Positions 13,127-38,762 of a DNA stretch of 64,000 nucleotides are shown in pieces. The notes beneath the pieces are model-generated. The model saw nothing but the letters and a program-made list of their open reading frames with translations, was not told the DNA's origin and did no database searches. How positions within the stretch are numbered: position 1 is the first letter of the stretch; each line of letters opens with the position of its first letter. A program made the translations under genes and the position numbers. Origin of the DNA: a virus; the IMG/VR virus record IMGVR_UViG_3300042302_000394, positions 1-64,000 of that record; one strand, written 5' to 3'.

Positions 13127-13816
13127 TTATACGGAAAAAGCAGTCTCTCTAAGGATAAACTCTTCAACTTTTTTGATGTATCCGCTCAAATATATGCCTA
13201 CCATGCTGAGCATTTTGTCGTCTTCTACGTACATAAAGGGATCTTGTGCGTAGTGTCTAGTGCTTACAAGCCATCGTCTACTGGTTTCGCTAATGTCTAG
13301 CTTGTCTCCGTACTTATCTGCCCAGGTTACAAATGTAGCTCGCTTGTCTGCAGGGAATCTTGATTTAAAATATACCCTGTATTTGTACTTTTCTTTGGGA
13401 AATACGTCTCGCAGTATCTTTTTATGACCATTACTAAGCATGAATTCTAGTTCTTGGTCCGTAGTCGGCCCGCTTATCTTTCTAATCCACTTGTTTAGAT
13501 CTTTATCTATTGTTTCTAATATAGATTTGTCTGTGCAAAATAGATTAAAATGCGACCCTTCTACTCGAATTTTTACATCGGGGTTGTCAATGAACGGTGC
13601 TACTAAGTTAGTAAACTCTAAGTAATCTGCTTTGTTGATTTGCAAAGCAGACAGCCTATCAACGTGCATACCTTTACCAGTAGCACACCACTCTCGAACA
13701 ATATCGACTCCGCTGTGAACAATTCTAGAGGCTCCTACTTGTCTACATTCGACTTTGTAGGGCCACTTGTTATAGAACAGTTTACTGGAGTTCAGTTTCT
13801 GTATCTGTGTTTTCAT
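13127..13816 (-). CDS. Conserved phage hypothetical, 229 aa
   Basis: Basic, mixed alpha/beta protein without signal or membrane segments. The start at 13816 (MKTQIQKLNSS) is preferred over an upstream ATG at 13855 because the longer form would overlap ClpA far more; even so it overlaps the ClpA 3' end by 35 nt. Contains FVTWADKYGDKL and a C-terminal helix-rich part (YVEDDKMLSMVG). No domain recognised. It follows ClpA on the same strand and may be an accessory factor, but that is inferred from position only. Confidence 0.65.
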   Translation of the reverse strand: MKTQIQKLNSSKLFYNKWPYKVECRQVGASRIVHSGVDIVREWCATGKGMHVDRLSALQINKADYLEFTNLVAPFIDNPDVKIRVEGSHFNLFCTDKSILETIDKDLNKWIRKISGPTTDQELEFMLSNGHKKILRDVFPKEKYKYRVYFKSRFPADKRATFVTWADKYGDKLDISETSRRWLVSTRHYAQDPFMYVEDDKMLSMVGIYLSGYIKKVEEFILRETAFSV

Positions 13817-16073
13817 CTGGAATCTTTGATTTAATGACTGGCATAACATCAACAATGTTAAGTTTTAGTTGTTCGTCTACTACATTAACTTCAACTACTC
13901 CGCCGTTTGTTAATTTACCAAAAAGAATTTCACGACTCATAGGTTTCTTAATGAATTCGTCAATAGTTCTTTGCAAAGGACGAGCACCCATTTTACTATT
14001 AAATCCTTTGGCAATTAAAAATTCAACTGCTTCGGCATTGGGTTTAACATGAATATTTTTGTCTTTAACTAATGCATTGAGCTCGTCAATAAATTTCTTA
14101 ACAACTTTGATCATTGTAACATGGTCTAACTTACCAAACTTAACAATACCATCTAAACGATTGCGGAATTCAGGCGCAAAGAATTTGTTAACAGCATCTT
14201 TAGGATCACTATCACGCTCTAGACTACCAAAGCCTACTGAATTCTTTTCAGCATCTGCGGAACCTAAGTTTGATGTCATAATGATAATAGCATTGCGACC
14301 ATCTGCCTTTTTGCCGTTACTACCGGTAATAAAACCATTGTCCATTAATTGTAGCATAACAGTTAGTACATCCGGGTGAGCCTTTTCGACTTCGTCTAAT
14401 AAAAGAACACAGTTAGGTGTTTCTTGTAAGCATGTAATCAACTGTCCTGCATTTTCATCAAATCCTACGTATCCAGGCGGCGCTCCAATAAATTTAGCAA
14501 CACTATGTTTTTCCTGAAATTCACTCATATCAAATCGTACAAGTTTAATTCCCATACCAGTGGCGAGCTGTTTAGCAGCTTCAGTCTTTCCTACGCCAGT
14601 AGGACCTACAAACAAGAAACTACCGACCGGCTTATTAAATGGTTTTAATCCTGCTTGGGCAATAAAAATCTTATCTAACAGGCTAGTGATAGCATTTTCT
14701 TGACCGAAAACCTTGTTACGTAGGCCTTTTTCCAGACTTGCAAGATTAACACCTTCTTTTGAGCTAACCTGTTCAATTGGAAGATTAGCCAGTCTTGCAA
14801 CTTCAAAAACAATCTCGTCATGATCAACAACTCCGTTTTCTTCGTCCTTAACTTTAAATCGAGCACATGCACAATCAATTAAGTCTAGCGCCTTATCTGG
14901 AAGCTTCTTGTCAGTCATGTACTTAACAGAGTAGGTTACTGCATCAGTAATGGCTTGATTGGTAATCTTAACACCGTGGTGTTTTTCGTAATACTTCTTA
15001 ACACCTTTTAGGATCTTAATAGTAACTGCTTCACTAGGCTCGTCAATAGTAACACGCTGGAATCGACGCATTAGGGCGCGATCTTTTTCAAAGTGCTTGC
15101 GATATTCTTCCCAGGTAGTACTGGCGATAACTTTTAGTGTACCTTTTGTCAGCATAGGCTTGAGCATATTTGCCATGTCGTTACTGTTACCATTTGCAGC
15201 GCCTGCCCCGTTCATCATATGTGCTTCATCGATAAACAGAATACAATTTTTCTTCTTTTCTAACGCACTGATAATAGCTTTAAGACGTTCTTCAAAATCA
15301 CCACGATACTTACTACCGGCAAGCATAGAACTAATGTCCATACTATAAACAGTGTGATCTTGAATAAATGTAGGAACAGTACCTTCAATGATTTTTTTAG
15401 CCAAGCCTTCTGCAATAGCAGTTTTACCTACACCGGGATCACCGATTAAAATAACGTTACTTTTGTTTCTTCGAGCAAGTACTAGTTGAACTTCTTCGAT
15501 TTCTTTTTCACGACCGATAACTGGATCAATTTTCTTTGATTTTGCTTTTGCAGTTAGATTGGTGCAGAACTGACTAATCATCCTTTCAAGTTGGAGATTA
15601 GATCGTGTGCTACCTGCAGAACTCTCCTCATTGTCTTCTTTGCTATATTCTTTTTGGATAAAATTTAGGAATTTATCTTTATCGATATTTGCTTTTTTAA
15701 TAAAGTGCGTGGCATAGCTTTTCTTTTCAGCAAACATGCTGATAAAACAATCAACTGGTTCAATAACATTTCTACCAGTAAACAACACCTGAGTAAACGC
15801 TCGATTTAAAACGCGATCAACTGTATTTGTTTTTTTAGGACGATCGACGCTTGGGTTAACAATTTCCTTTAAATCTTCTGATATATATTTTTCTAAGTCT
15901 GTAATTAAACTTTTAACGTCAGCACCAAAGCTACCGAGGAGTTTTGCAAATTCTTCGTTAGTAACTAGCCCGTGCAAGAAGTGTTCAAGAGTAACATACT
16001 CGTGTTCGTGTTCGTTGGCTAGACTCACGGCTGATTCGAAAATCTGCTCAAGATCTTTATTTGGTTGTAGCAT
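13782..16073 (-). CDS. clpA: ClpA: ATP-dependent unfoldase of the ClpAP protease
   Basis: Full-length HSP100 unfoldase of 763 residues, close to the 758 of E. coli ClpA. ClpN-like repeat domain at ~1-140 (YVTLEHFLHGL). D1: Walker A GDPGVGKTA (~210), Walker B LFIDEAH. D2: Walker A GPTGVGKTE (~489), Walker B LLLDEVEKAH (~558), sensor MTSNLG, arginine-finger region FRNRLD and MGARPLQR. Between MTSNLG and FRNRLD, near residue 612, is NSVGFGS, in the position of the IGL/IGF loop that docks ClpA onto ClpP. A ClpP gene is at 38178. There is no middle coiled-coil domain, so it is ClpA rather than ClpB or ClpC. Start overlaps the deformylase 3' end by 17 nt. Confidence 0.95.
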   Translation of the reverse strand: MLQPNKDLEQIFESAVSLANEHEHEYVTLEHFLHGLVTNEEFAKLLGSFGADVKSLITDLEKYISEDLKEIVNPSVDRPKKTNTVDRVLNRAFTQVLFTGRNVIEPVDCFISMFAEKKSYATHFIKKANIDKDKFLNFIQKEYSKEDNEESSAGSTRSNLQLERMISQFCTNLTAKAKSKKIDPVIGREKEIEEVQLVLARRNKSNVILIGDPGVGKTAIAEGLAKKIIEGTVPTFIQDHTVYSMDISSMLAGSKYRGDFEERLKAIISALEKKKNCILFIDEAHMMNGAGAANGNSNDMANMLKPMLTKGTLKVIASTTWEEYRKHFEKDRALMRRFQRVTIDEPSEAVTIKILKGVKKYYEKHHGVKITNQAITDAVTYSVKYMTDKKLPDKALDLIDCACARFKVKDEENGVVDHDEIVFEVARLANLPIEQVSSKEGVNLASLEKGLRNKVFGQENAITSLLDKIFIAQAGLKPFNKPVGSFLFVGPTGVGKTEAAKQLATGMGIKLVRFDMSEFQEKHSVAKFIGAPPGYVGFDENAGQLITCLQETPNCVLLLDEVEKAHPDVLTVMLQLMDNGFITGSNGKKADGRNAIIIMTSNLGSADAEKNSVGFGSLERDSDPKDAVNKFFAPEFRNRLDGIVKFGKLDHVTMIKVVKKFIDELNALVKDKNIHVKPNAEAVEFLIAKGFNSKMGARPLQRTIDEFIKKPMSREILFGKLTNGGVVEVNVVDEQLKLNIVDVMPVIKSKIPDENTDTETELQ

Positions 16074-16566
16074 TAATTTTTTCCTTTTTAGCTTTCTTTG
16101 CGGCCATTGTCCATTTTAATGGACTGGTCCTATCTTGATAAGTAATACCTTCTAAATGATCGAACTCATGTAAAAAGCACTTACAGTTGTATCCGTCGAA
16201 CTCACCTTCTTCCCATTCTCCGGAACTGTTTTGCCAACGTGCTTTAATAGCTGTTGGTCTTTTAATTTTAACATAAATTCCAGGGAAACTCAAACATCCT
16301 TCCTCCAAATCTTCTGTTTCATTTGTATTTGCAATGATAATGGGATTAAAAAATGCCATGCCTGCATCTGGACTTTCTCGATGTCCCATAACAAATACTC
16401 TAGCTGTTAGACCTAATTGATTTGCAGCAAGACCTATGCCATCTTGTGCGTACATAAATTCGAGCATCTGCCTTTCGAGTTCTTTTGGATTTAATATCGG
16501 ATTATTAAAATCAAAGTCTGGCATTCTTTCTCTAAGAATTGGGTTTGGAAATTTTACTATGTTCAT
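16057..16566 (-). CDS. def: Peptide deformylase
   Basis: Removes the formyl group from N-terminal methionine of nascent proteins. All three catalytic motifs are present: GIGLAANQLG (~44-53), EEGCLSFPG (~91-99) and HEFDHLEG (~134-141), supplying the Cys and two His metal ligands plus the catalytic Glu position occupied as HEFDH. Length of 169 residues is that of full bacterial enzymes, longer than the mini-deformylases of many cyanophages. It starts MNIVKFPNP. A CTTAAATA box lies 5 nt before the ATG and uses the TAA stop of dnaJ. Operon order is dnaJ, def, clpA. Confidence 0.95.
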   Translation of the reverse strand: MNIVKFPNPILRERMPDFDFNNPILNPKELERQMLEFMYAQDGIGLAANQLGLTARVFVMGHRESPDAGMAFFNPIIIANTNETEDLEEGCLSFPGIYVKIKRPTAIKARWQNSSGEWEEGEFDGYNCKCFLHEFDHLEGITYQDRTSPLKWTMAAKKAKKEKINATTK

Positions 16567-16571
16567 AATAA

Positions 16572-16577
16572 TATTTA
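16572..16577 (-). promoter_or_regulatory. TAAATA late-type box for deformylase
   Basis: Minus-strand TAAATA exactly 5 nt before the ATG at 16566; the first three bases are the dnaJ stop codon. No Shine-Dalgarno. Confidence 0.45.
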
Positions 16578-17399
16578 AGAAACTATTTGACGTATAAGAT
16601 CTTTTTGTTGATCAGTAAGGTTTGTGGGTGTTTTTAAATTAATAGTTATCAGTAATCTACCCCGCATTCGATTATCTTGCATAAATGGCATACCGTATCC
16701 CTGCACACTCATTATTTGTCCGTGTTGTGTACCCGGGGGAATGTTTATTTCTAATGTTTTATTATCTAATGTAGTAAATTGTTTCAAACACCCAATAATT
16801 GCTTCTAAAGAATTTACATCTAACGTTCTTACTAAATCGTCATTGTTTCGTTGAAAGACTGCATGTGGTATGACATGAATAGTTAAATGAATATCACCTC
16901 TAGGTACACCACTAATACTGTCATCACCCATTTCTGATAGTCTTAGTGTAGTTCCATCCCTAACACCTGCTGGAATTTTTACTTCAAGTAATTGTTCTCT
17001 ACCGGATGGTAGTTGTATATTGGCGATCAATTCTTTTCCACTAAATGCTTCCTCTAGCGTTATTTGAGTTTGAAGATTCATTATCCTGTTGCGAACAGGT
17101 TGCTGTCTACGCTGTCCAAATATATCACCAAATGGGCCGCCCCCAAACCCCCGTAGGATATCTTCAAACCCCGGAGGCATTCCTCCGTACTGTTGAAATC
17201 CACCCTGTGGCTGCGGATTATCATATTGTGCTTTTTTATCTACATCCCCTAACGTGTCGTATGCTACTGATATTTCTTGAAACTTGGCAGTGTCTCCTCC
17301 ACGATCCGGATGGTGTTTGGCTGCAAGTTTACGATATGCTTTCTTGATATCGTCTTGCGATGCCGAACGATCAACGCCTAAAATATTGTAATAATCCAT
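16575..17399 (-). CDS. DnaJ-family co-chaperone (CbpA-like, no zinc finger)
   Basis: Hsp40 co-chaperone, 274 residues. J domain at 1-65 with YNILGVDRSA, helix II KKAYRKLAAKHHPDRGGD holding the HPD tripeptide that stimulates DnaK. Gly/Phe-rich linker at ~72-105 (GGFQQYGGMPPGF, GGGPFGDIFG). C-terminal substrate-binding beta domains at ~115-260 with LPSGREQLLEVKIPAGV and INIPPGTQHGQ. The four CxxCxGxG zinc motifs are absent, making it a class B protein like CbpA. A perfect sigma70 promoter is just upstream. It would recruit host DnaK; no phage DnaK is seen here. Confidence 0.93.
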   Translation of the reverse strand: MDYYNILGVDRSASQDDIKKAYRKLAAKHHPDRGGDTAKFQEISVAYDTLGDVDKKAQYDNPQPQGGFQQYGGMPPGFEDILRGFGGGPFGDIFGQRRQQPVRNRIMNLQTQITLEEAFSGKELIANIQLPSGREQLLEVKIPAGVRDGTTLRLSEMGDDSISGVPRGDIHLTIHVIPHAVFQRNNDDLVRTLDVNSLEAIIGCLKQFTTLDNKTLEINIPPGTQHGQIMSVQGYGMPFMQDNRMRGRLLITINLKTPTNLTDQQKDLIRQIVS

Positions 17400-17406
17400 A
17401 AGTAGA

Positions 17407-17437
17407 AAAAGGTATAGTAAATTATACTATACCTTTT
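17407..17437 (-). terminator. 13-bp perfect stem-loop overlapping dnaJ promoter
   Basis: Left arm 17407-17419 (AAAAGGTATAGTA) and right arm 17425-17437 are perfect complements with a 5-nt loop. On the minus strand it follows the 17457 gene and ends in a T-run, so it can act as a terminator. The -10 box of the dnaJ promoter lies across the loop, so it may also be an operator-like dyad. Confidence 0.6.
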
Positions 17438-17449
17438 GGGTTGTGTCAA
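17421..17449 (-). promoter_or_regulatory. Consensus sigma70 promoter for dnaJ-def-clpA
   Basis: Minus strand: TTGACA (17449-17444), 17-bp spacer, TATAAT (17426-17421), both hexamers perfect. The -10 box sits in the loop and arm of a 13-bp dyad. Confidence 0.88.
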
Positions 17450-17456
17450 CTGCTAG

Positions 17457-17687
17457 TTATTTCTTTTCCGGAACTGCTGTTCCCTCTACCTTTTTACGAA
17501 CTTTAACCTTTTTGCATTCCTGCACAGGCTTACCGTCTTTGCCGTTAATTACTTTACCGGCTTTGTCTTTTTTCTCTGTGCATACTTCTTTCATTTCCCC
17601 TTTTCCTGGACCTTCTTTGTCGTCGGCAGCATATGCATTACCCATAAGTGCTAGTGCAAGTCCTGCTACAAAAATAATATTTTTCAT
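17457..17687 (-). CDS. Small exported lysine-rich protein, 76 aa
   Basis: Signal peptide MKNIIFVAGLALALMGNAYA with an AYA-A cleavage site around residue 20. The mature ~56 residues are very rich in Lys and Glu, with two cysteines that could pair. No known domain. It is last in the lysis-region transcript after the holin-like gene, so a periplasmic role during lysis is possible but unproven. Confidence 0.75.
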   Translation of the reverse strand: MKNIIFVAGLALALMGNAYAADDKEGPGKGEMKEVCTEKKDKAGKVINGKDGKPVQECKKVKVRKKVEGTAVPEKK

Positions 17688-17698
17688 TTTAATTTCCT

Positions 17699-18103
17699 TT
17701 AAATTAATGGTTGTGGTTCTTGTGGTACTATTAGTTTACCACTTACGGTTGTTGCATACGGAGATGCACTGGTACTGCCTGTCGAAGGTACGCCAAATGT
17801 TGGAGCCCTGCTTGATAATATGTCGGTTGTTGAGTTGCCATTTATAACTCCTCCTAATTTTTCCTGTCCTCTGCTCCACGCAGTAACTCCTACTATAGCA
17901 CCCATTGCTATATGAAAAAGTCCTGCACCTTGCAGTGTTAACGGTTGCCACTGAGATGTTACACTTCCTTTGTCCATAGCTTGTAACATGCTCCATAAGA
18001 TTGGAAATATAATAAAGTCAGTTATGCATACTATCATATACATCCATCCCATAGCTGGACGCCATTTTGTATTCATCCAGTCTTCTTTGCTACGGGCTGT
18101 CAT
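17699..18103 (-). CDS. Holin, 3-TM superfamily
   Basis: 134 residues. N-terminal RPAMGWMYMIVCITDFIIF-type segment and hydrophobic stretches at ~18-40, ~58-78 and a weaker one match the GTA/3TM holin family, which forms the membrane hole that releases endolysin. The C-terminal tail ends SGKLIVPQEPQP, nearly the same as the tail of the neighbouring 18110 protein. Overlaps nothing; 7 nt after the 18110 gene stop. Located with endolysin and spanins, which supports the call. Confidence 0.82.
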   Translation of the reverse strand: MTARSKEDWMNTKWRPAMGWMYMIVCITDFIIFPILWSMLQAMDKGSVTSQWQPLTLQGAGLFHIAMGAIVGVTAWSRGQEKLGGVINGNSTTDILSSRAPTFGVPSTGSTSASPYATTVSGKLIVPQEPQPLI

Positions 18104-18109
18104 AATATA

Positions 18110-18646
18110 TTATAGTTCAGGTTGTGGTTCTTCTGGAACAATACGTTTACCACTTGCAGTCATTGCAAATGTTTGACTATTTCCTTGTTGACCAAATCCG
18201 CCAAAACCTACGGGGACATTATTTCCAAAACTACTAGTCGGTGTTGCTCCGAATGCTGGCCCTGAACCGAATCCACCGTTGTTTGTTGAAGAAATAGTAG
18301 AAGAACCTAATGGTCCACTAATTGTTGTCGATGAAGTTTTTGGTCCTCTATCCCATCCGGAATTTGCCGCCTTCAATGCTTCTTTCTGTGCTTCCTTGTC
18401 ACCGGGACTTGCCAACATGATACCACTTAGTGTACCTGTTAAGAATGTAGCAATAGGAATGATTAATTCAAAGAACTTTTGATCAATTGGGCTAATAGCG
18501 TTAAGTGGTTGTGTGACAAAAATTAACGAATATAACACTACGAATACAATTCCAAATAATGTCAATGACAAGCAAATGCCGATGAAAAATTTCAATCGAG
18601 CCATTAACTGCTCTTCGGTATAAATGTGTTCTGTTTTATTTTCCAC
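18110..18646 (-). CDS. Lysis-region membrane protein with glycine-rich linker, 178 aa
   Basis: A GTG start at 18646 is chosen because AAGGAG lies 6 nt upstream of it; an ATG at 18709 would overlap the preceding gene by 74 nt and has no such site. Two membrane helices (about residues 23-45 and 62-82), then a Gly/Ser/Phe-rich linker (SSTNNGGFGSGPAF) and a C-terminal SGKRIVPEEPQP shared with the holin. It may be a second holin, an antiholin or a holin partner. No family recognised with confidence. Confidence 0.72.
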   Translation of the reverse strand: MENKTEHIYTEEQLMARLKFFIGICLSLTLFGIVFVVLYSLIFVTQPLNAISPIDQKFFELIIPIATFLTGTLSGIMLASPGDKEAQKEALKAANSGWDRGPKTSSTTISGPLGSSTISSTNNGGFGSGPAFGATPTSSFGNNVPVGFGGFGQQGNSQTFAMTASGKRIVPEEPQPEL

Positions 18647-18926
18647 AGTTTGCTCCTTGTGTGTTAGGCGCTCCTGCAACTGGAGCAGAAATTGTTTTAG
18701 TCGGTTCATCTTTTGGTGGTCCTAATCTTGGGTCTCGTTGCCCTTTAAAAATGTGTTCGGGACAGGTACGAGTTACATCACAGGTGGGTAACTTGCATAT
18801 TTGTTTATCCCAGTTATCTGGATTTTGGCAAGGATAACGAAAACTGTCACCATTGCTAAAATATGCTAACGCAAGCGGTGCTAATAGTAATACAAACACC
18901 CACTTGAGTAATTTTTTATCTTCCAT
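18636..18926 (-). CDS. Small membrane-anchored/exported protein, 96 aa
   Basis: Positively charged N-terminus followed by one hydrophobic helix (WVFVLLLAPLALAYF, residues ~9-23), then a hydrophilic domain with five cysteines (YPCQNPDNW, ICKLPTC, RTCPEH, ANCGK). This suggests a periplasmic, disulphide-bonded domain with an uncleaved or cleaved signal. Between spanin and holin genes; its last 11 nt overlap the 18110 gene. Function not known. Confidence 0.7.
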   Translation of the reverse strand: MEDKKLLKWVFVLLLAPLALAYFSNGDSFRYPCQNPDNWDKQICKLPTCDVTRTCPEHIFKGQRDPRLGPPKDEPTKTISAPVAGAPNTQGANCGK

Positions 18927-18948
18927 TACTCGGCTCCTTTATATACCA

Positions 18949-19221
18949 TTATTTAACGCTTTCAAAGATTTTTCTTTGGGTGTTATACCACTCATTCCAG
19001 CCATCTACTTTATTAGCACACTCGTAATATAATCCGTAGTTCTTAACCACAGTTTTAAGCAAGTCAGTGATAGCTACTTCTTTGCCAGTATTATCTACTG
19101 TAGATAATTCTGGGCATTTTTCTTGTAGAGCAGGAACAGCATCTGGAAAGTTTCTTTTAACTGGAGTAGGTGCCGCACATCCTACCAATAATACAGCAAG
19201 TCCTAAAATAATTATTTTCAT
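18949..19221 (-). CDS. o-spanin-like outer-membrane lipoprotein (Rz1 role)
   Basis: A 90-residue lipoprotein with signal MKIIILGLAVLLVGC; lipobox LLVGC puts the lipidated Cys at residue 15, followed by AAPTPVK. The Cys is not followed by Asp, so outer-membrane sorting is expected. The mature part is short and helical. Adjacent (4-nt ATGA overlap) to a coiled-coil inner-membrane protein, the typical spanin pair layout, which would fuse inner and outer membranes at lysis. Confidence 0.8.
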   Translation of the reverse strand: MKIIILGLAVLLVGCAAPTPVKRNFPDAVPALQEKCPELSTVDNTGKEVAITDLLKTVVKNYGLYYECANKVDGWNEWYNTQRKIFESVK

Positions 19222-19751
19222 TTCTTAGGCTCTCCTGCTGCTTTGTTTAGTTTTGCCGCGGCATCATGTATATCGATTAATTCTTTAGGAACTGGGCAAT
19301 TTTCAATATACTTTATAACTTCTTCTACGCGAACTCTTTCGGGACCCTGTACTTCTTTGATAATTTCTTTAGTTTCTAATTTATCAATATACTTTGTTAT
19401 ATACTCTGTCTTGCCCTTAATATACTCTTTTTGTTTTACAATTTTTTCTTGTACAACAACATTTTCTTTCTTAGACTCAACTTCGGCCGCAGCAACTTTA
19501 GTTTCTAACTCTTTAACTCGATCACGCCACATCATTTCTGTAGTGTAGCCGCCTTTAAAATAAATTCCCGCAGTTAACAATACAGCACTGACTATTTGAA
19601 ATGCTAATGCGTATTTTGACAGTCCGGGAATTTTGTTTAAAATTTTGTGCAGTACAAAAAACGCCAGGATGAAACTAATAACCCCTACAATCAATATTAT
19701 ATTGACAATGTACATCAACAGGGTGTCAGGGAGGAATGATAGTAACCACAT
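19218..19751 (-). CDS. i-spanin-like inner-membrane protein (Rz role)
   Basis: 177 residues. Two hydrophobic segments (about 5-32 and 45-65), then a long coiled coil (~70-145, DRVKELETKVAAAEVESKK onward) with many Lys/Glu heptads, and a C-terminal ENCPVPKELIDIHDAAAKLN that resembles the Rz-type C-terminus with its Cys-x-Pro-x-x-L and HDAA segment. Its end overlaps the o-spanin start by 4 nt. The presence of two rather than one membrane helices is a little unusual. Confidence 0.8.
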   Translation of the reverse strand: MWLLSFLPDTLLMYIVNIILIVGVISFILAFFVLHKILNKIPGLSKYALAFQIVSAVLLTAGIYFKGGYTTEMMWRDRVKELETKVAAAEVESKKENVVVQEKIVKQKEYIKGKTEYITKYIDKLETKEIIKEVQGPERVRVEEVIKYIENCPVPKELIDIHDAAAKLNKAAGEPKK

Positions 19752-19752
19752 A

Positions 19753-20388
19753 TTAATGGCCTAGAACGTGAAGTGCGTGATTGTAATGTTTGATACGATC
19801 TTCTAAACCAATTGTACCACCGTTGATACGCTTAGTCAATGTTAGAATGTCGCCTTTGTCTGCCCACTGATTTAAGTTGTTGGCTTCCCAGAACCAGGCA
19901 GCACTTTGCACACAACCTTCGAATGTTGTTAGATGTTCGCCAGCTTCTTCAACTGAGATTTCTAAACTTTGTGCATATCGTGTATAGTTGTCCTTGCCAG
20001 TTAGCTGAATTAGACCACGACCGCAATAACGAAAACCGTCGCCTGACTCTTCTGGACCATTGCCCATACGTCCACCGTAGACCTTATTGGCAATCATTTC
20101 TGGCTTGCCTGCATATTGAGCAGCAATGGCATCGTCGGAGAAATATTTAGGAAAAATCTTGCGTAGTGTCACAGCACGATAGTTTAAGTTTTCTTTGATT
20201 GCTCTATAGCCACCTGACTCGTGTGCAGTCTGTGCTAGGAATGCAGCAACACGTGGCGCTGTTTCAATATCATAATCTGGAAGAATTTGAGATATTGCTT
20301 CGTACCACTGCTCTGCATACGGAGGATTTCCGCCTACACACTCTTTAAACTTTGCCAATGTAAATTCAAATTTAAATCCGTTACTCAT
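19753..20388 (-). CDS. Endolysin, glycoside hydrolase family 19
   Basis: Lysozyme-like GH19 muramidase/chitinase fold, 211 residues with no signal peptide, so export depends on the holin. AHESGGYRAIKENLNY (residues ~53-68) supplies the catalytic Glu, then YCGRGLIQLTGKDNY (~120-134), and the C-terminal KRINGGTIGLEDR (~184-196) are hallmarks. First gene of the lysis run: endolysin, i-spanin, o-spanin, two small membrane proteins, holin. Spacing to the i-spanin is 1 nt. Confidence 0.95.
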   Translation of the reverse strand: MSNGFKFEFTLAKFKECVGGNPPYAEQWYEAISQILPDYDIETAPRVAAFLAQTAHESGGYRAIKENLNYRAVTLRKIFPKYFSDDAIAAQYAGKPEMIANKVYGGRMGNGPEESGDGFRYCGRGLIQLTGKDNYTRYAQSLEISVEEAGEHLTTFEGCVQSAAWFWEANNLNQWADKGDILTLTKRINGGTIGLEDRIKHYNHALHVLGH

Positions 20389-22553: not shown

Positions 22554-22559
22554 GAGGGT

Positions 22560-30483: not shown

Positions 30484-32031
30484 TTAAACCCAGGATTGAA
30501 TGTTGGAACCTGTAGTTCCTACTCTAATCCATGTATCAGTTGCTACACAAACGTAAAGAAAATTTGTGTCATAAGATACAAGCCCAGAAAAACCTGACGA
30601 GTTAGGAAGTTTTGATCCTGTTCCAACTGCTACAGTGCCTGGTGGTCCCGACGGACCTGATGCTCCAGTGGGTCCAGTAGCTCCACTAGGACCTTGTGGT
30701 CCTGTAGCGCCAGATGGTCCACTAGGTCCTGTAGCGCCTACTCCTGATGGTCCACTAGGACCTGATGGTCCTGTTGGTCCAGTTGGTCCAACAAAGCCAA
30801 TTCCGTTGGCGCCCGATGGGCCTGACGGTCCTGTCGGTCCTGTACTACCTGCGGGACCCTGCGGTCCTGTGGCACCTGCGCCCGATGGCCCAGTCGGACC
30901 TGATGGTCCTGCAACAGCACTTGCTGGACCCGGAGGTCCCGACGGTCCTGTTGCACCTTCTGGTCCTGTTGGACCCGACGGTCCTTGTGGCCCTGTAGCA
31001 CCTGCACCTGTGGGTCCTACGTCACCTGGAATTCCTTGAGCACCTGACGGTCCTTGTGGGCCTTGTGGTCCCGTAGTACCACCGCCGGTGCCGCCTGATA
31101 TTGTAACCCATTCGGTGTCATACTCAGTGTTTGATGCTTTGGCTAGAACTTGTCCAGTAAATCCACCTACTGCTATGCCTGTGCCTGTGCTTCCAGGTGC
31201 GCCTGATGGTCCTGATGGTCCTGATGGGCCTGGCAAACCGGGGCTTCCCGGACTACCTGCAGGGCCTTGTGGTCCAGTAGGCCCTGCACCAGCAGTTGTA
31301 CTAGTGTTGACCCATTTAGTACCGTCGTACTTTAAAAACTCTCCGCTAATAGGACTTGTTAGTGTTACATCAGTTAACGAGCTTAATGCAGTTACTCCCG
31401 GTGTTGCAGAACCTAAATTTACAACTCCGAATGTACCATACATGTCACTACTGTTTTCTGCGGCATAATATAGTGTAGATGGAGCGCCTAACGGTACAGC
31501 AAATGTAATTGTTCCCGTGGCTGTGCCATTATTAGTTACACCACTATTATATGTATTTTCAGTTCCTGTAGTAGCCGCAGTTTTAATCCATAACGGATAC
31601 CCAGCAGCATTAACACTGAAGTTATATGTAAATCCTCTTACAAGGTTTAATGTAGGATCATTGAATCCTTCGATAATATAGTCTAAACTACCGTTGTTAG
31701 TAATAGTATATGTAATTCCAAACCCGCCACCTTCTGGTCCAGTTGGACCAGCGTCACCTTGCGGCCCTTGAGGACCAGAAGGCCCAGTTGGACCAGGTAC
31801 TGTACTAGCATCGCCCTGCGGACCTTGTGGTCCTGTTGCACCTTCTGGTCCTTGTGGTCCAGCGCCACCAGCTACTCCGCCATAGGCAAGAGTAGCCCAG
31901 GTCGAAGTGCCGCTGCCTATTTTAAATTGCCCTGTATCTGTTTCTAGGGCCATTTCTCCTTCGGCCAGGACAGGGTTTGCAGAACTCCATTCTGCAGCGG
32001 TACCTCTTCTAAGTTGAATTTGAACAGCCAT
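30484..32031 (-). CDS. Collagen-like tail fibre with tropism-determinant-like N-terminus, 515 aa
   Basis: N-terminal attachment module (residues 1-52: [13 protein letters not shown]...[13 protein letters not shown]...[10 protein letters not shown]), the same module as in the 2669 protein. Collagen-like triplets at ~57-98, a beta domain at ~100-235 including [17 protein letters not shown], a second short collagen patch (~250-285), and a long collagen region (~315-470) with many GPSGPSG units. C-terminal beta strand region. Same strand and reading direction as adjacent fibre genes. Shine-Dalgarno GGAAAG near the ATG. Confidence 0.88.
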
Positions 32032-32056
32032 GTTTGTATTCTTTCCGTATTATCAA

Positions 32057-32064
32057 TATTTATT
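32057..32064 (-). promoter_or_regulatory. AATAAATA late-type box
   Basis: Minus-strand TAATAAATA about 25 nt upstream of the ATG at 32031, with a purine-rich ribosome-binding site between. Confidence 0.5.
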
Positions 32065-32485
32065 ACACACCACCTGCATTGATGGGTGTGATTCCACCAT
32101 ATATAGATGACGGTGTACCACCATCTAAATTTAAAATTCCTTCGCCACTTGCACCACTAGGACCCGATACTCCACTGGGACCTGTAGGTCCAGGTACTCC
32201 TATTGGTCCTTGAGGACCCGTGGGACCTACAATACTATCGCCCTGTGGTCCTTGCGGACCTGTGGGACCAAAAACTCCCTGTGGTCCTTCTGGCCCTTGT
32301 GGTCCTTGCGGCCCTACAGGACCAGTAGGTCCTACAATCTGTATAGCAGCTTCGTTAACTAGAGTAATTAACTGCTCTAATTCCATTTTCCTGGTTCTAG
32401 CAGGCTCGTAAGAGACATCAACAACTGGAACAATAAGTTGATCTGTTAATGTGCTTAAAAATGGTAAATTGGTGATTCTTGCCAT
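32063..32485 (-). CDS. Short collagen-like fibre protein, 140 aa
   Basis: N-terminal ~50 residues ([20 protein letters not shown]) form an attachment-type module like that of other fibre genes here (compare the 27434 start). Residues ~52-115 are collagen-like triplets; a short C-terminal end closes with [15 protein letters not shown]. Part of the fibre block; it may form the stalk of a heteromeric fibre. Confidence 0.8.
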
Positions 32486-32488
32486 AAA

Positions 32489-33571
32489 TTATTCTCGTTG
32501 TAAAGGTTGGTTATTTTCATCATCAAGGCGTACCCAACCTTCTGGACCAAATAGGTAACCATCTATATCCATCAGATCCCCAACAGCATTTCTGTTGAAT
32601 ATTAGATATTTAGCTCCACTATTGTCTAAACTATTTTCCACAATTATTCGGTCAACTTCAAAATCAACAGTGTTAAACTTAAAATTATTAGATTTAATTC
32701 TATTTAGAATAATTCTGCTTTTATTAGGCAATGTGTAACATAAAGGAACAACCCTCATGTACGTCTTTGTTCTGTAATCATTCGACTGCTGAGTTAACAT
32801 AAATCTAGGCTGTAGTTGTTCATCTACGCTGATAGTCGACCAGTCTTGTAGTGTAATAGATTGTAGCTGTTTACGCATATTATCTATACTTGCAGGGTAA
32901 TATAATTCATCGTTGTGGTCAGTGTGTACTACAGAAGAGACGCTAATATCGGAATTATTAACTAATTCGTCAACTACTTCCACATATATTAAATCGTATA
33001 CGTGTGTTCCTGCAGAATTTTTAGCAATAGCGGATTTTACACCGCCTAATCTTATCTTCTTTTTATAAAAATTCTCTTGTAATGCATATTGATATTCGTA
33101 GAGATTTAGTTGTTCTATACCAAAATCCAACGTTAGTTTAATACTTCTCTGGACTCCAAAGTTTGAATCGTAATATCTATACATTAATAGCGGGTCAAAT
33201 ATAGTAGAGTCGTTGATAAAATTGTTAAATTGATTACGTTTAGTAACACTCAAAAAAGGTCTAATATAGATATCGGTATACTTGATATTGTTGGGTTGCG
33301 TTACATTTAGAGTGAATGTCTGTGTTGATTCTTCGGTATTTGCAAGGTCAACAGCATTGATTATAAAAGTAAAGGTTCCCGAGGAATTATAATTTGCTCT
33401 ACCAACTATGGTACCATCATGTTTTAAAGTTAGCCCGCTGGGAAGTTGCCCAGCTTTAAGCTCGTATTTTAACTCTGAACCTGACGATGTCTGTGTAGAC
33501 TGCACAGAAATTTCACTAACATATCCAGTTTGAAGTGTACCTAGACTGCTAGTTGTCAACCATTTTAACAT
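32489..33571 (-). CDS. Structural protein with an Ig-like (He_PIG-type) domain, 360 aa
   Basis: The first ~95 residues contain AGQLPSGLTLKHDGTIVGR and FTFIINAVDLANTEES, the pattern of putative Ig (He_PIG) domains in surface proteins. The remainder (~115-360) is a mixed alpha/beta part with IDNMRKQLQSITLQ. A TATAAATC box lies ~21 nt upstream with an AGGGG ribosome-binding site. First gene of the second structural block. Possibly a baseplate wedge or fibre-base component. Confidence 0.75.
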   Translation of the reverse strand: MLKWLTTSSLGTLQTGYVSEISVQSTQTSSGSELKYELKAGQLPSGLTLKHDGTIVGRANYNSSGTFTFIINAVDLANTEESTQTFTLNVTQPNNIKYTDIYIRPFLSVTKRNQFNNFINDSTIFDPLLMYRYYDSNFGVQRSIKLTLDFGIEQLNLYEYQYALQENFYKKKIRLGGVKSAIAKNSAGTHVYDLIYVEVVDELVNNSDISVSSVVHTDHNDELYYPASIDNMRKQLQSITLQDWSTISVDEQLQPRFMLTQQSNDYRTKTYMRVVPLCYTLPNKSRIILNRIKSNNFKFNTVDFEVDRIIVENSLDNSGAKYLIFNRNAVGDLMDIDGYLFGPEGWVRLDDENNQPLQRE

Positions 33572-33592
33572 TAAGAAATACCCCTACGGTGA

Positions 33593-33600
33593 GATTTATA
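33593..33600 (-). promoter_or_regulatory. TATAAATC late-type box
   Basis: One mismatch from TATAAATA, on the minus strand, about 21 nt before the ATG at 33571; leads the second fibre block. Confidence 0.5.
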
Positions 33601-33688
33601 GAGGTATTTACCTAAAAATACTCAAATAACAATAGCCTTAATTTTTAGAAAGTTAAATATATTATACTTTAATTAAAGGAAAAGTACC

Positions 33689-34057
33689 ATGGAAATTATT
33701 GTCGCAGTCGCAGTATTTGGCTTTGGATTATGGTGGGTCTTTTTAAGAACTCCTGCTGATACAAAACCATCTGCACCTTATAAAATTGAAACTCCACCTG
33801 CACCAGAACCTGCTCCGGTTGTGGTAGAAACTGCACCTGCAGTTGTTACTGATACAGTAGTGGTAGTAGAAAATGCAGTCGTACCAGAAGCTGTAGTAGC
33901 AGAAGCTCCTGCTAAGAAGCCACGTACACCACGTGCTCCTAAAGTAGAAGCTCCTGTAGCAAAACCAGCCGCAAAAAAAGCAGCCCCTGTTAAGAAGGCT
34001 GCTGCTATTAAAGCTGCTCCTAAGAAACCAGCAACTCCGAGATCAAAGAAGGCTTAA
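33689..34057 (+). CDS. Membrane-anchored Ala/Lys/Pro-rich (histone H1-like tail) protein, 122 aa
   Basis: One N-terminal helix (IIVAVAVFGFGLWWVFL, residues 3-19), then a Pro/Ala/Val-rich segment with acidic residues (~25-72), then a strongly basic KKPRTPRAPK and AKPAAKKAAP-type C-terminus (~76-122) like histone H1 or bacterial Hc1 tails. Ribosome-binding site AAAGGA precedes the ATG. TonB-like Pro-rich spacers also look like this. The tail could bind DNA at the membrane; this is inference. Its last 15 nt overlap the convergent UvdE gene. Confidence 0.78.
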   Translation: MEIIVAVAVFGFGLWWVFLRTPADTKPSAPYKIETPPAPEPAPVVVETAPAVVTDTVVVVENAVVPEAVVAEAPAKKPRTPRAPKVEAPVAKPAAKKAAPVKKAAAIKAAPKKPATPRSKKA

Positions 34058-35071
34058 TTTTTTAGCTCGGTCGGCAAGGGCAACGCTCGCAAGGTTTTTG
34101 CCCTTTGCTTCTACCATAATATCATGGGTATCGAGGAAACTTAATGCCCATTCATTTACTGCGGTGTTCCACATAAAATTACTGTGGGCTCGCAGTTTCT
34201 GCTTTTTGTGTCCGGCTTCTAATAGCTGTGCATAATCGGGCAGTGTTTTCTCACAATGTCCAGGTAGCCATTCTTCACGGCTAACAGAATAGTGCATAAC
34301 GGGTCGAACACCCCGCCAGCTGTCAATCACACGTAGAACTCTATCGTCGGTGGGTTGAATGTAGTCTCCTGTACGGACCCAGTGATGGTGTACGTCAAGC
34401 ACGAGGGCGCAATGTTTTTGCAGCTCAAGGCTGCTTTCGATTCCCCAGGCGTTCTCGTCGTTTTCAATTGTGATGCAGTTTCTTGCTTCGGGGGTAAGTC
34501 TTCCGAGTACATCCTTAATGCCTTGTGGACCTCTTCGACCCGAGATGTGGACGTTGATTTTAAAGTCTTGAAACGATTTACCATATCCCATCCAGCGGGC
34601 CATATCCACATGATATTCAAACTCCTCTATCGACCTATTTACAATATCATCCGACTCACTTGCCAAGACAGTAAACTGACCAGGATGAAAGCTGAGCCTA
34701 ACGCCGCCCTTGCGAGCCAGATCTCCCACGGCTCGAAATGCTCTTTCGCAATAGGCTCTAACATCGGATAGCCTGTAAAAGAACTGCCAATCGCGCTGAG
34801 TATACACAGGTAGTATATCGCTGCCGAGTCGTACCATTCTAAGATTTTCATCAAGTGCTCCTACACGTTCTACCAGTTTGCGAACAGCTTCAATGTTACC
34901 TTTAGTAAGGTCCCAAAGTTTTTCTTCTGCTACATTCTGGCTCTGTCTATTTAACCACGCAACGGTGGTAGAGCCAGTATTGTACTTTTTAGCATCGTCA
35001 TTGGGCTTGATGCCATTAACTTGTGCAGGAGTGTCGATCCATTTGCAGGCAAATCCAATTTGTTTTTTCAT
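34043..35071 (-). CDS. uvsE: UV damage endonuclease (UvdE)
   Basis: 342-residue TIM-barrel nuclease that nicks DNA 5' to UV photoproducts. Family features: IGFACKWID start, LSFHPGQFTVL (~131-141), INVHISGR (~174-181), ENDENAWG (~204-211), DVHHHWVRTGDY (~226-237) and HYSVSREEW (~264-272), which supply the metal-binding His, Glu and Asp residues. T4-type phages usually use the unrelated DenV, so this is a different repair route. It ends overlapping the H1-like gene on the other strand. Confidence 0.94.
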   Translation of the reverse strand: MKKQIGFACKWIDTPAQVNGIKPNDDAKKYNTGSTTVAWLNRQSQNVAEEKLWDLTKGNIEAVRKLVERVGALDENLRMVRLGSDILPVYTQRDWQFFYRLSDVRAYCERAFRAVGDLARKGGVRLSFHPGQFTVLASESDDIVNRSIEEFEYHVDMARWMGYGKSFQDFKINVHISGRRGPQGIKDVLGRLTPEARNCITIENDENAWGIESSLELQKHCALVLDVHHHWVRTGDYIQPTDDRVLRVIDSWRGVRPVMHYSVSREEWLPGHCEKTLPDYAQLLEAGHKKQKLRAHSNFMWNTAVNEWALSFLDTHDIMVEAKGKNLASVALADRAKKLSLL

Positions 35072-35718
35072 GATATCAATCTTAAATGAGAGGGCGTTGT
35101 TATCCCAATTTCTGGAAAAAAGTTTTTTGTGTAAATGTCAAATGCAATTCCAACCCTTAAATTTCCCTGATAGGGCAATGTTTCGTGTGGCATAATGCAA
35201 GAAAAGAAATGTATGTCTCCTGTTTTATTTGGAATTTTTAAAATGTCTTTACCGTAATACACAGTATCACTAGGTGCATCACCTTGTAAGAATAAGTTTC
35301 CACAGATTGTTTTAAACACATTCTTTTTAAACATGTCATTCTCAATAATCGGAGATGCATGGTGCATGTGTTTTTCTATTCTTTCTCCTTTTCGGAAAAT
35401 ATTAGCCCACATTTTAACATAGAATTCCTCCCCACCAATGATCTGTTTTGCAGATTCTAAAATCTTTTTAAGCAACGGATTTATTTGATTAGGAAGAAAA
35501 TCAATTAAATTGTAATATTCGTGTCTAGTGGTAATAGAATTAACGGGTGCTTCTTTGTAATGTGACGGACCTAATCCAATAATTTTACTTTCTAGTTTAA
35601 CAATACTATCAGTAAGTGCATTACAATAAGTTTGATCTAGTACATTGACCCCGAGGATATTGTTTTTGAAATTCTCAATGCGGTCTTCGTAGACTATTTG
35701 GGTTTGTGCAACGACCAT
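35068..35718 (-). CDS. 2OG-Fe(II) oxygenase-like protein, 216 aa
   Basis: Segment MWANIFRKGERIEKHMHHASP (shortened), GNLFLQG, IHFFSCIMPHETLPYQG, and LRVGIAFDIY are the order of the double-stranded beta-helix fold: proximal His pair, distal His in MPHE, then Arg binding 2-oxoglutarate. The proximal motif is HMHH rather than HxD. Overlaps uvdE by ATGA. Such enzymes hydroxylate proteins, nucleic acids or small molecules; the substrate is unknown. Confidence 0.78.
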   Translation of the reverse strand: MVVAQTQIVYEDRIENFKNNILGVNVLDQTYCNALTDSIVKLESKIIGLGPSHYKEAPVNSITTRHEYYNLIDFLPNQINPLLKKILESAKQIIGGEEFYVKMWANIFRKGERIEKHMHHASPIIENDMFKKNVFKTICGNLFLQGDAPSDTVYYGKDILKIPNKTGDIHFFSCIMPHETLPYQGNLRVGIAFDIYTKNFFPEIGITTPSHLRLIS

Positions 35719-35861
35719 GAACCATCCTTGTTGTCAATCCATTCGAGGGTGTCGCCTTCTACCCAACCTTGCATATTGAGTAGTTCTTGAGGCAACGGCA
35801 AAATAAGATCCTTAGTATCGGGATCTTCTTCAAGTATTACTGTCCAAGAATGTTTAGTCAT
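35694..35861 (-). CDS. AbrB/SpoVT-like small protein, 55 aa
   Basis: ATG at 35861, 55 codons. LILPLPQELLNMQGWVEGD then TLEWIDNKDGSWSLHK: the L-PLP-ELL...W-GD-L-W pattern resembles AbrB-type swapped-hairpin DNA-binding domains of antitoxins and transition regulators. The 3' end overlaps the oxygenase by 25 nt. A possible regulator. TAAAATATACT lies just ahead of the ATG (a near TAAATA box). Confidence 0.72.
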   Translation of the reverse strand: MTKHSWTVILEEDPDTKDLILPLPQELLNMQGWVEGDTLEWIDNKDGSWSLHKPK

Positions 35862-35869
35862 AGTATATT

Positions 35870-36805
35870 TTACACGATTGTACGGAAATAGTCAATGGTT
35901 CTAACAAGTCCTTGTTCCAAATTGATTTTAGGTTCCCAATCGAGCATAGACTTTGCTACTGAAATATCCGGACGACGTTGCTTTGGATCGTCTTGAGGCA
36001 AAGGCATTTGAAGGATTTGGCTCTTGCTTCCGGTAAGTTCAATAACTTTATGTGCTAATTCCCACATGGTAAACTCTCCTGGATTGCCAGTATTGACAGG
36101 CCCGATAAAATTATCGTCGGTGTGGTTCATCATTGCCTGCATAGCATCCAAAAGATCATCAACATAGCAGAAACTACGAGTTTGCATACCATCACCGTAG
36201 ATAGTAATGTCTTTGCCTTGTAGTGCTTGAACGATGAAATTACTAACTACTCTGCCATCATTTTGAGCCATTCTTGGGCCATAAGTGTTGAAAATACGAA
36301 CAATTTTGGCCTTAACATCGTGAGTACGGTAGTAGTCCATAAACAGTGTTTCTGCGGCACGTTTACCCTCATCGTAGCAACTACGGATACCAATTGGATT
36401 TACATTGCCCCAATATGATTCCGGTTGTGGATGTACAGTTGGGTCACCGTAGCATTCACTGGTACTTGCCTGTAGAATCTTAGCACCAGTACGTTTGGCC
36501 AAACCTAGCATATTGTAGGCACCTAGCACACTGGTTTTCATTGTTTGGATAGGATCCCATTGATAATAATATGGACTTGCAGGGCAAGCCAAATTATAAA
36601 TCTCATCAACTTCTACATATAATGGAAAGCAAACATCTTGTCGGATGACTTCAAAATTCTTGTTATCTAATAAATGAGCAATATTGTTTTTGCTACCTGT
36701 AAAATAATTGTCCACACAAAGAACATGGTGTCCTTCGTTGACAAGCCGATCACATAAATGTGAACCTAAAAATCCTGCGCCGCCTGTTACTAATACTTTT
36801 TTCAT
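35870..36805 (-). CDS. uxs: UDP-glucuronate decarboxylase (UDP-xylose synthase)
   Basis: 311-residue short-chain dehydrogenase/reductase. NAD motif GGAGFLGSH at ~8-16; catalytic Ser/Thr region STSECYGD (~115-122); YDEGK (~143-147) is the YxxxK pair. The signature runs [41 protein letters not shown] and RSFCYVDD are specific for UXS. It converts UDP-glucuronate to UDP-xylose with release of CO2. A truncated UDP-sugar dehydrogenase that would make UDP-glucuronate is at 49798. One residue is unusual: SECYGD instead of SEVYGD. ATGA overlap with the upstream cytidylyltransferase. Confidence 0.94.
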
Positions 36806-37284
36806 TTGTTTCCTTTAATTAAATTAGGTGAGTACTGTGGCAATACATTACTAACTTCTGTTTCTTTTTTATTTTCTAGTTTAACGGTTCTATCTCTAAG
36901 TTCGCTAGAACTATAAACATGTTCTCTTTTATGATAGTGTAATTCTATACCGTTGTCAATACACCATTGCTTGCCTGTAAAATCTCTATTTAGATATTCG
37001 TCACTGAGAAACCGAATATGAATAGTCTGTGTCTTAAGTAATTGTAACAGATCGAATTCGGTTTCGTATATTAAAATTTCATCCACATATTTGCAGGCCT
37101 GTAATTGCACATATCTTTCATAGGCACTTTGAACAGGTTTATTTTTAACTCCAGGTCTATCTATTGAAGGATCAATTTGAAGTGCAACAACAAGATAATC
37201 GCATAACTGTTTCTCCATTTTAAGCATGGTTACATGACCTGCATGTAACAGATCAAAACTACTACAGTTAAATCCTATCTTCAT
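36802..37284 (-). CDS. Cytidylyltransferase-like nucleotidyltransferase, copy 2
   Basis: 160 residues, paralogue of the 24519 protein: [42 protein letters not shown] correspond residue for residue to motifs of the other copy. HxGH and S-S-S/E-x-R sites are intact. ATGA overlaps on both sides (uxs downstream, 44-residue gene upstream), so it is expressed with UXS. It may build an activated sugar or lipid head group for capsule-like modification. Confidence 0.87.
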
Positions 37285-37415
37285 TCTGCGTCCTTTGGCG
37301 CTACAATTCCATATTGTTCATACATCCATTTAATAAATCTTTCAATTTCTTTACTTGGGTATGGATACGCTTTGTATGCTATGGTTACTCTTTCTAACCA
37401 ATCTTTATCTGTCAT
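37281..37415 (-). CDS. Small hypothetical, 44 aa
   Basis: ATG at 37415, 44 codons (MTDKDWLERVTIAYKAYPYP...). Helical, no motif recognised. ATGA overlap with the cytidylyltransferase and 1 nt from the 57-residue gene upstream supports translation. Confidence 0.65.
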   Translation of the reverse strand: MTDKDWLERVTIAYKAYPYPSKEIERFIKWMYEQYGIVAPKDAE

Positions 37416-37416
37416 G

Positions 37417-37590
37417 TTAGTTCCAGTGCCTTAATACACCTGCTACTATAAAGCAGTTTGTTATTATGTATGATAGCACAATAAATGTGCGAAAGCAAGC
37501 AATTAGATCTGATTCCGAATCTGTATTGCCTGCTTTTTCTCCAAGGGCCTTAGCCCATAGTCTCCAAATGTTACGCAAATAGGTCTTCAT
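37417..37590 (-). CDS. Small membrane protein, 57 aa
   Basis: ATG at 37590 (MKTYLRNIWRLWAKALGEKAG), overlapping the QueD 3' end by 20 nt. Basic amphipathic start, then one membrane helix (TFIVLSYIITNCFIVAGVL, ~33-51). A longer start at 37734 is rejected because it lies deep in queD. Common type of small T4-like phage membrane protein. Confidence 0.72.
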   Translation of the reverse strand: MKTYLRNIWRLWAKALGEKAGNTDSESDLIACFRTFIVLSYIITNCFIVAGVLRHWN

Positions 37591-38077
37591 TCCATTCACG
37601 ATGTCCTTCACGGAACGCCATATTGGCCTGTGTTTCGCGTACTTCCACACGATAGCACCAAAGTCTTGCCGCTTCGCCCGGTCCCCACATCTCTGGAATG
37701 TAAACGCCGTTGACATATTTGTAGAGCATGTCACTTAATGCTTCACAACCGAGTGCTGGTAGAATGACAATCTTAGCCATGTTCTTTTCTTGTAGCATTT
37801 TGAATACTTCCATTTGAGGATCGTCTTGTGCAACAATTAAAGTATGATCGAATTGATCCTCTAATGTTTTCTTTAGTTCTTTTAAACCACCATAGTCAGC
37901 CGCCCAATTGCGGACATCTAGGTCGTTGGTGCCAAAGTAGAATTTCATGCTAAATGAATAGCCGTGAATTAGATTACAATGACTATCACTGCGCCATTGG
38001 CGGTATGCACAGGGAAATGCATCGTGATATTCTTTTGTGCTTGTGTACTTGTATAGTACGGGTTGTAGATTTGCCAT
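37571..38077 (-). CDS. queD: QueD-like 6-carboxytetrahydropterin synthase
   Basis: 168 residues. FPCAYRQWRSDSHCNLIHGYS (shortened here) shows the subfamily with HGY in place of the usual HGH zinc pair; DHTLIV and LGCEALSDMLY and WCYRVEVRETQAN agree with the QueD/PTPS fold. It makes the pterin intermediate of 7-deazaguanine from dihydroneopterin triphosphate supplied by FolE. FolE (49050) and a QueC-like gene (2076) are in the window. A ~100-nt leader with a good ribosome-binding site (AAGGAG) precedes it. Confidence 0.85.
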   Translation of the reverse strand: MANLQPVLYKYTSTKEYHDAFPCAYRQWRSDSHCNLIHGYSFSMKFYFGTNDLDVRNWAADYGGLKELKKTLEDQFDHTLIVAQDDPQMEVFKMLQEKNMAKIVILPALGCEALSDMLYKYVNGVYIPEMWGPGEAARLWCYRVEVRETQANMAFREGHREWNEDLFA

Positions 38078-38177
38078 CTCTAGTCTCCTTTGTAAGGTAG
38101 CAAGTTTGACGACATGCAGAGTTTATAAAGCGGGATGAATGTGCGTGAAAGTCCGCTGCCTACTATTTATTATAGGC
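38078..38177. other. Leader region before queD, 100 nt
   Basis: Non-coding. Reads TAATAAATA then a GC-richer stretch with GCAG...CTGC and GCGG...CCGC arms, followed by AAGGAG 11 nt before queD. Possible structured leader; no known riboswitch family identified with confidence. Confidence 0.35.
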
Positions 38178-38762
38178 TTATCGACGTGAAACAATTTTGT
38201 CGCAAAGACCATAAGCCAGTGCTTCATCTGCGCTCATAAATGTATCTCGATCCATATCACGCTCAAAATCGGCATAGCTTTTACCGGCGGTATTGTGTTC
38301 AACATACAATTTGGTTAACATGGTTTTCATTTGTGTGATTTCTTTGTATTGAATTTCAATATCACTCTGCATACCACGAGCACCACCACTAGGCTGATGA
38401 ATCATGTGACGAGCATGTGGCAACATAAAACGTTTACCTGGATGTCCTGCCTGTGCTAGGAAACTACCCATTGAACAAGCCTGACCCATAACATAGGTAC
38501 ACACATTTGGTTTGACAAACTGCATAACGTCATAGATAGCCATGCCACTTGTAATTACACCGCCTGGACTATTAATGTAAAAGTGAATATCCTTTTCGCT
38601 GTCTGAACTTTCCAAATGTAGGATCTGTGCTACAATTAGATTACTACTGTGATCATCGACTGGTCCATTCAAGAACACAATACGCTCATTAAGCAAGCGG
38701 CTAAAAATATCAAAGGCTCTTTCGCCTTGTCCGGTCTTCTCGACCACCATTGGTACTAACAT
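38178..38762 (-). CDS. clpP: ClpP protease subunit
   Basis: 194-residue serine protease forming the ClpP tetradecamer. Catalytic Ser in [10 protein letters not shown] (~94), His in [10 protein letters not shown] (~119), Asp in the [12 protein letters not shown] region (~168). [17 protein letters not shown] (~62-78) is the substrate-binding strand, and N-terminal LVPMVVEK matches. The gene overlaps its upstream neighbour by one base. It pairs with ClpA at 13782, forming a possible phage ClpAP. Confidence 0.95.

Follow-up and report, generated by a model that had tools for sequence, protein, structure and literature searches.

Does a large phage that encodes both a Clp unfoldase and the ClpP peptidase have a protease of its own, or do these proteins work with the machinery of the host? 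The question is raised by the first 64 kb (hereafter, the window) of the IMG/VR virus record IMGVR_UViG_3300042302_000394 (207,813 bp), which encodes, on the minus strand, a ClpA-type double-ring AAA+ unfoldase of 763 amino acids (aa) at positions 13782 to 16073 and a ClpP serine peptidase of 194 aa at positions 38178 to 38762. An earlier note on the window had placed both genes correctly, without stating their strand, and had proposed that they constitute a self-sufficient phage ClpAP protease; a plus-strand reading of the two open reading frames was rejected, as the translations are riddled with stops. The gene content of the window is that of a T4-like tailed phage (collagen-like tail fibers, baseplate, clamp loader, PhoH, endolysin, and rIIA/rIIB), and the source is a large freshwater T4-like jumbo phage with its own ClpA, ClpX, ClpP, and ClpS. 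The record is probably incomplete, because its relatives reach 353 kb. In the best-supported reading, which we consider probable, the phage possesses a self-sufficient ClpAP(S) system, in which ClpA and ClpX form working proteases with the phage ClpP and ClpS feeds ClpA.

Phage ClpA retains both ATPase sites and the ClpP-docking loop

The description of this protein as a complete ClpA with both AAA+ sites intact was borne out by its domains and motifs. Pfam searches recovered, in order, the Clp_N, AAA, AAA_lid_9, AAA_2, and ClpB_D2-small domains, and residues 5 to 735 align to the Escherichia coli ClpA structure 1ksf (663 bits; E = 4.8e-198). The first ATPase module (D1) contains a Walker A motif, GDPGVGKT (residues 211 to 218; positions 15420 to 15443, minus strand), and a Walker B motif, ILFIDEAH (residues 278 to 285; 15219 to 15242, minus), and the second (D2) contains the equivalent GPTGVGKT (residues 490 to 497; 14583 to 14606, minus) and VLLLDEVE (residues 556 to 563; 14385 to 14408, minus). 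The pore loops, KYRG and GYVG, are likewise intact. The protein thus displays the HSP100 class 1 architecture, namely, an N-domain, two AAA+ modules with intact Walker A and B motifs, and a D2-small domain; its top model overall is the NCBIfam equivalog TIGR02639, with a score (876 bits) that is nevertheless under the curated cutoff of 993. ClpA is under purifying selection (NG86 nonsynonymous rate [dN] of 0.11 to 0.12 versus synonymous rate [dS] of 1.75 to 1.95, where dS was computable), and in ClpA, ClpP, and ClpS alike nonsynonymous changes are much rarer than synonymous ones, figures that are rough because dS is close to saturation.

Hydrophobic clefts on ClpP are the docking sites of IGL/IGF tripeptides (PMC7707817). 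In the phage ClpA, the heptapeptide NSVGFGS (residues 611 to 617; positions 14223 to 14243, minus), whose VGF triplet occupies residues 613 to 615 (14229 to 14237), aligns without a gap to the KSIGLIH of E. coli ClpA. The placement of this peptide at the IGL site, near residue 612, was therefore correct, and the careful alignment that the earlier note had named as a test does not move VGF elsewhere. E. coli ClpB is gapped at this site and lacks the loop. Across 89 phage ClpAs the triplet conforms without exception to [VIL]G[FVMY], with an invariant central Gly, V, I, or L at the first position, and F (85 proteins), V (2), M (1), or Y (1) at the third. Bacterial ClpA/ClpC relatives mostly have IGF, LGF, MGF, or VGF at the same place.

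Phage ClpP has an intact catalytic triad and a modified cleft

The ClpP gene also encodes, as had been claimed, a complete enzyme with a visible Ser-His-Asp triad. On alignment to E. coli ClpP, the triad comprises S97 (positions 38472 to 38474), H122 (38397 to 38399), and D173 (38244 to 38246; all minus strand), the last corresponding to E. coli D171, and it is kept in all of the ClpP sequences examined. The protein scores 255.6 bits with PF00574 and 239.5 bits with E. coli ClpP, the latter in a match that spans the full mature protein. It begins with MLVPMV, against the (A)LVPMV of mature E. coli ClpP; it thus starts at the mature N terminus and has no propeptide to remove. Judged by these motifs, both the phage ClpA and the phage ClpP look active.

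We take L48, F49, Y62, F82, I90, and L114 of E. coli ClpP to be the unfoldase-docking cleft. The ClpPs of the window clade keep L48, Y62, F82, and L114, with F49 changed to His and I90 to Tyr. His at position 49 is present in 13 of 13 window-clade ClpPs and never in 27 bacterial ClpPs; position 90 is Tyr in 12 of the 13 and Tyr or Phe overall.

An entirely different identity for this protein, a head maturation protease unrelated to ClpA, is suggested by its best PHROGs family, which bears that label, as do some RefSeq phage records. We regard it as very improbable and rejected it, on the strength of the model scores and of the relatives' own prohead proteases. The protein scores 291 bits with the true ClpP model NF001368, above the cutoff of 249, versus 101.5 bits with NF045542, the model of ClpP-related head maturation proteases, below the cutoff of 120; with the NCBIfam equivalog TIGR00493 it scores 271 bits, below the cutoff of 308.6. 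Its gene neighbors are sugar, pterin, and tail fiber genes. Moreover, in our group sample of 16 large records, which includes the present one and whose four longest members span 322 to 353 kb, 9 have a separate T4-type prohead protease (S77), which was not found in this incomplete record.

In about half of the relatives, a second form of ClpP occurs, distinguished by 10 residues inserted in the handle region and by HRVSSG where the other form has HQPSGG. This second form is common to seven relatives and the jumbo phage PA5oct, and the ClpA of one carrier is ~82% identical to that of the window. The PA5oct ClpP is annotated "ESI-MS/MS," as are virion structural proteins and unlike the PA5oct ClpA, and may be packaged in virions.

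ClpS and ClpX complete the set

The ClpA-ClpP pair noted earlier is indeed present in one genome, but the set is larger, as the record also encodes ClpS and ClpX outside the window. The clpS gene (record positions 110435 to 110752, minus) matches PF02617 with 87.4 bits (cutoff, 23); its product is below the NCBIfam equivalog cutoffs and is identical to E. coli ClpS at all of the N-degron pocket residues (N34, D35, D36, T38, H66, and L99). The clpX gene (record positions 127437 to 128666, minus; 530 bits versus a cutoff of 359 and 502 versus 370.75) encodes a protein with a C4 zinc finger, an AAA+ domain, and a docking loop reading SVGF. With ClpS and ClpX also encoded, the phage ClpP is not dedicated to ClpA.

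Clp components co-occur across jumbo phages

The search for the ClpA-ClpP pair in other phage genomes, which the earlier note had suggested, recovered it in all eight of the ClpA-bearing named jumbo phages, i.e., Atu_ph07, PA5oct, Phosso, SCTP-2, RaK2, Vibrio 2.275.O, 121Q, and XaC1. Each of these has matches to both PF00574 (ClpP) and PF02617 (ClpS), the latter being weak in RaK2 and 121Q (25 to 26 bits) and in XaC1 (18.4 bits, under the cutoff). In the group sample, ClpP is present in 15 of 16 records and ClpS in 10, the four longest having both, and ClpX is present in 7 of the 9 records tested. As controls, we had named nine jumbo phages before testing (phiKZ, 201phi2-1, KVP40, G, CcrColossus, PAU, Lak-B1, Aeh1, and SPN3US). 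None of the nine has a full ClpA and none has ClpS; a strong ClpP occurs among them only in G and Lak-B1, both of which have ClpX, and KVP40 gives a weak match (47 bits). Naive Fisher tests give P values of 4e-5 for the association of ClpS with ClpA and 6e-4 for that of ClpP with any unfoldase, both too small because the phages are phylogenetically nonindependent. The Clp parts travel together far more consistently than previously noted. Under a linkage rule in which ClpS occurs solely alongside ClpA, and ClpP solely alongside an unfoldase, several "accessory" genes that had been annotated one by one become a single machine open to testing, for which Phosso, PA5oct, and 121Q offer cultured phages. 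In Bacillus phage G, clpP and clpX are adjacent (187823 to 189648), forming a compact phage ClpXP.

These results bear on the proposal that phage ClpA functions independently of ClpP, serving virion assembly as a translocase or chaperone together with DnaJ. Such a role has been put forward for phage ClpA (PMC7824862) and would suit the location of clpA, next to a DnaJ gene and, in the present phage as well as in PA5oct, RaK2, and 121Q, beside giant genes for tail fibers or structural proteins. Phages of the RaK2/121Q type, had they possessed ClpA without ClpP, would have favored it; that supposition proved wrong, as they have a divergent ClpP and a ClpS-like domain. We consider a ClpP-free role improbable, given that all of the 89 phage ClpAs keep the docking loop that proteolytic ClpA has and ClpB lacks, and that ClpP and ClpS accompany ClpA in all eight named phages.

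Phage ClpAs form a separate lineage

A mixture-model tree gathers all 15 phage ClpAs into a single clade (support, 100/98) that is sister to the bacterial ClpAs; support for the clade is also 98 in a larger quick tree, and long phage branches could exaggerate its unity. The nearest bacterial ClpAs among the matches listed are at most 45% identical. A recent acquisition of ClpA from a host was rejected on both grounds, and the single clade points instead to an old phage lineage; the ClpA/ClpX/ClpP/ClpS set has been kept long enough to form a ClpA lineage of its own. In the ClpP tree, the sequences from ClpA-bearing phages share one side of a branch (76/92), close to alphaproteobacterial ClpP and apart from the sequences of G and Lak. 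Three subgroups (Atu_ph07 with Phosso; XaC1, Vibrio, RaK2, and 121Q; and the window group) appear in both the ClpA and the ClpP trees, with PA5oct discordant between them. The predicted ClpA-ClpP partnership is thus supported by co-occurrence and by the main phage subgroups shared between the trees.

Does phage ClpA work with phage or host ClpP?

In SCTP-2, ClpA and ClpX share the rare IGY loop, which is what two unfoldases that fit a single phage ClpP would be expected to show. The ClpA loops of the RaK2, 121Q, XaC1, and Vibrio 2.275.O group are IGV, IGM, VGF, and IGV, and the divergent ClpPs of the same group are changed at L114. These loop variants, together with the H49/Y90 cleft of the window clade, hint at loop-cleft coadaptation. 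A strict matching of ClpA and ClpX loops was rejected, being only partial: the ClpXs of relatives have VGF, IGF, or AGF while ClpA stays VGF. The strongest version of the argument, that of an ancient phage-specific Clp system with coadapted loops and clefts, in which phage ClpA and ClpX would pair with phage and not host ClpP as a private, ClpS-directed N-degron protease beyond host regulation, strikes us as unlikely.

Conversely, the phage and host components might mix and match, with phage ClpA and ClpX acting mainly on host ClpP and phage ClpP mainly on host unfoldases, such that the host machine is boosted or retargeted. Bacterial variation encompasses the VGF/IGF loops and most of the cleft residues, and a comparative review of jumbo phages, which treats ClpP, ClpS, and ClpA separately, reads phage ClpS in this way, with phages "instead" encoding ClpS to use host ClpAP (PMC7824862). 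Yet ClpA-bearing phages nearly always carry their own ClpP, where frequent loss would be expected if host ClpP sufficed, and the window-clade pocket has its own H49 and Y90. We hold such an exchange of partners to be doubtful.

The self-sufficient phage ClpAP(S) has the loop site, the intact enzymes, the co-occurrence, and the trees in its support. Several observations weigh on the other side. The loop, which the earlier note had described as matching the phage ClpP, makes ClpA able to dock onto some ClpP but does not alone distinguish that of the phage from that of the host, which it would fit too, since bacterial proteins often have VGF or IGF. The genes are scattered rather than in a single operon, with ClpP 22 kb from ClpA and ClpS and ClpX about 70 to 115 kb away. 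The ClpS of Atu_ph07, Vibrio 2.275, RaK2, and 121Q lacks H66, which makes an N-degron reading unlikely in these phages, and the leucyl/phenylalanyl transferase Aat (PF03588) was found in 0 of 16 group records, leaving the Leu/N-degron pathway incomplete, although a host could supply it. Finally, the nine-phage control panel was a hand-picked selection, and its members are not phylogenetically independent.

Under this self-sufficient reading, we infer that the phage ClpA and ClpX hexamers would engage their substrates, unfold them, and thread the chains into the barrel of the phage ClpP, docking via their retained VGF loops into its clefts, while the phage ClpS would deliver N-degron substrates to a ClpA whose gene is clustered with those for DnaJ and peptide deformylase. 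This system would probably serve as a phage-controlled machine for protein quality control and turnover during a long infection. Phages usually hijack protein degradation; if this reading is true, giant phages of a widespread group are themselves in control of protein turnover.

Relationship to known systems

The statement that phages are known to have ClpP only by itself has been overtaken: Atu_ph07, described in 2018, was reported with ClpX, ClpA, ClpB, ClpP, and ClpS (PMC6102473), and the PA5oct and SCTP-2 records annotate both ClpA and ClpP. A Sinorhizobium jumbo phage has six Clp open reading frames (PMC11242549), ClpA is a core gene of the "moraphages" (PMC12619734), and bS21 lake phages carry chaperones and a Clp protease (PMC9723584). 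The phage ClpA-ClpP pair is thus not new; that its parts are linked and that the docking loops are retained seems unstated in the papers searched, in which we found no mention of a ClpA-ClpP-ClpS linkage, of loop conservation, or of a single ClpA lineage.

E. coli ClpAP/ClpXP with ClpS has the same four components, domain order, Walker motifs, pore loops, docking-loop site, triad, and ClpS pocket residues, whereas here the genes are phage encoded and scattered, the loop is VGF rather than IGL, ClpP lacks a propeptide and has the H49/Y90 cleft, and Aat was not found. Atu_ph07 and Phosso likewise combine ClpA, ClpX, ClpP, and ClpS in one jumbo phage, with DnaJ adjoining ClpA and ClpPs 64 to 65% identical to that of the window, but their ClpAs are just 42% identical. 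Phosso also has a deformylase in its clpA cluster; Atu_ph07 does not, and its ClpS lacks N34 as well as H66. PA5oct, SCTP-2, RaK2, 121Q, XaC1, and Vibrio 2.275.O share a ClpA with a docking loop and ClpP-family and ClpS-family genes, but the last four have no ClpX and a divergent ClpP, with weak ClpS-like domains in RaK2, 121Q, and XaC1. The moraphages and bS21 lake phages, likened here by description, are also large aquatic phages with Clp genes, but their predicted hosts are Bacteroidota. Bacillus phage G and Prevotella phage Lak-B1 pair a phage unfoldase with a phage ClpP, and their ClpX keeps an LGF loop; they differ in having ClpX as the sole unfoldase, with no ClpA and no ClpS.

Gene neighborhoods

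The clpA gene is the third of a tight cluster on the minus strand, in which a DnaJ cochaperone gene (274 aa; 16575 to 17399) ends 8 nucleotides before a peptide deformylase gene (169 aa; 16057 to 16566), whose last 17 nucleotides overlap the start of clpA. Among 80 related viral loci, DnaJ adjoins clpA in most of those whose flank is long enough, and the deformylase is upstream of clpA in most and absent from some. The DnaJ-ClpA adjacency recurs in Atu_ph07 and PA5oct, and the full DnaJ-deformylase-ClpA order recurs in Phosso.

Just upstream of clpS is a gene for an IbpA-like small heat shock protein (record positions 110795 to 111268, minus). Also near clpS, outside the window, is a full-length 5-aminolevulinate synthase gene (record positions 112459 to 113694, plus; 528 bits; cutoff, 338); the presence of this heme pathway enzyme in a phage suggests an alphaproteobacterial host. 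Downstream of clpP is a 6-pyruvoyl-tetrahydropterin synthase-like (PTPS) gene (window positions 37571 to 38077, minus). The window further contains nucleotide-sugar and glycosyltransferase genes (35870 to 37284, 49798 to 50631, and 54234 to 55256, minus), encoding an epimerase, a heptose adenylyltransferase-like protein, a UDP-glucose dehydrogenase, and a glycosyltransferase.

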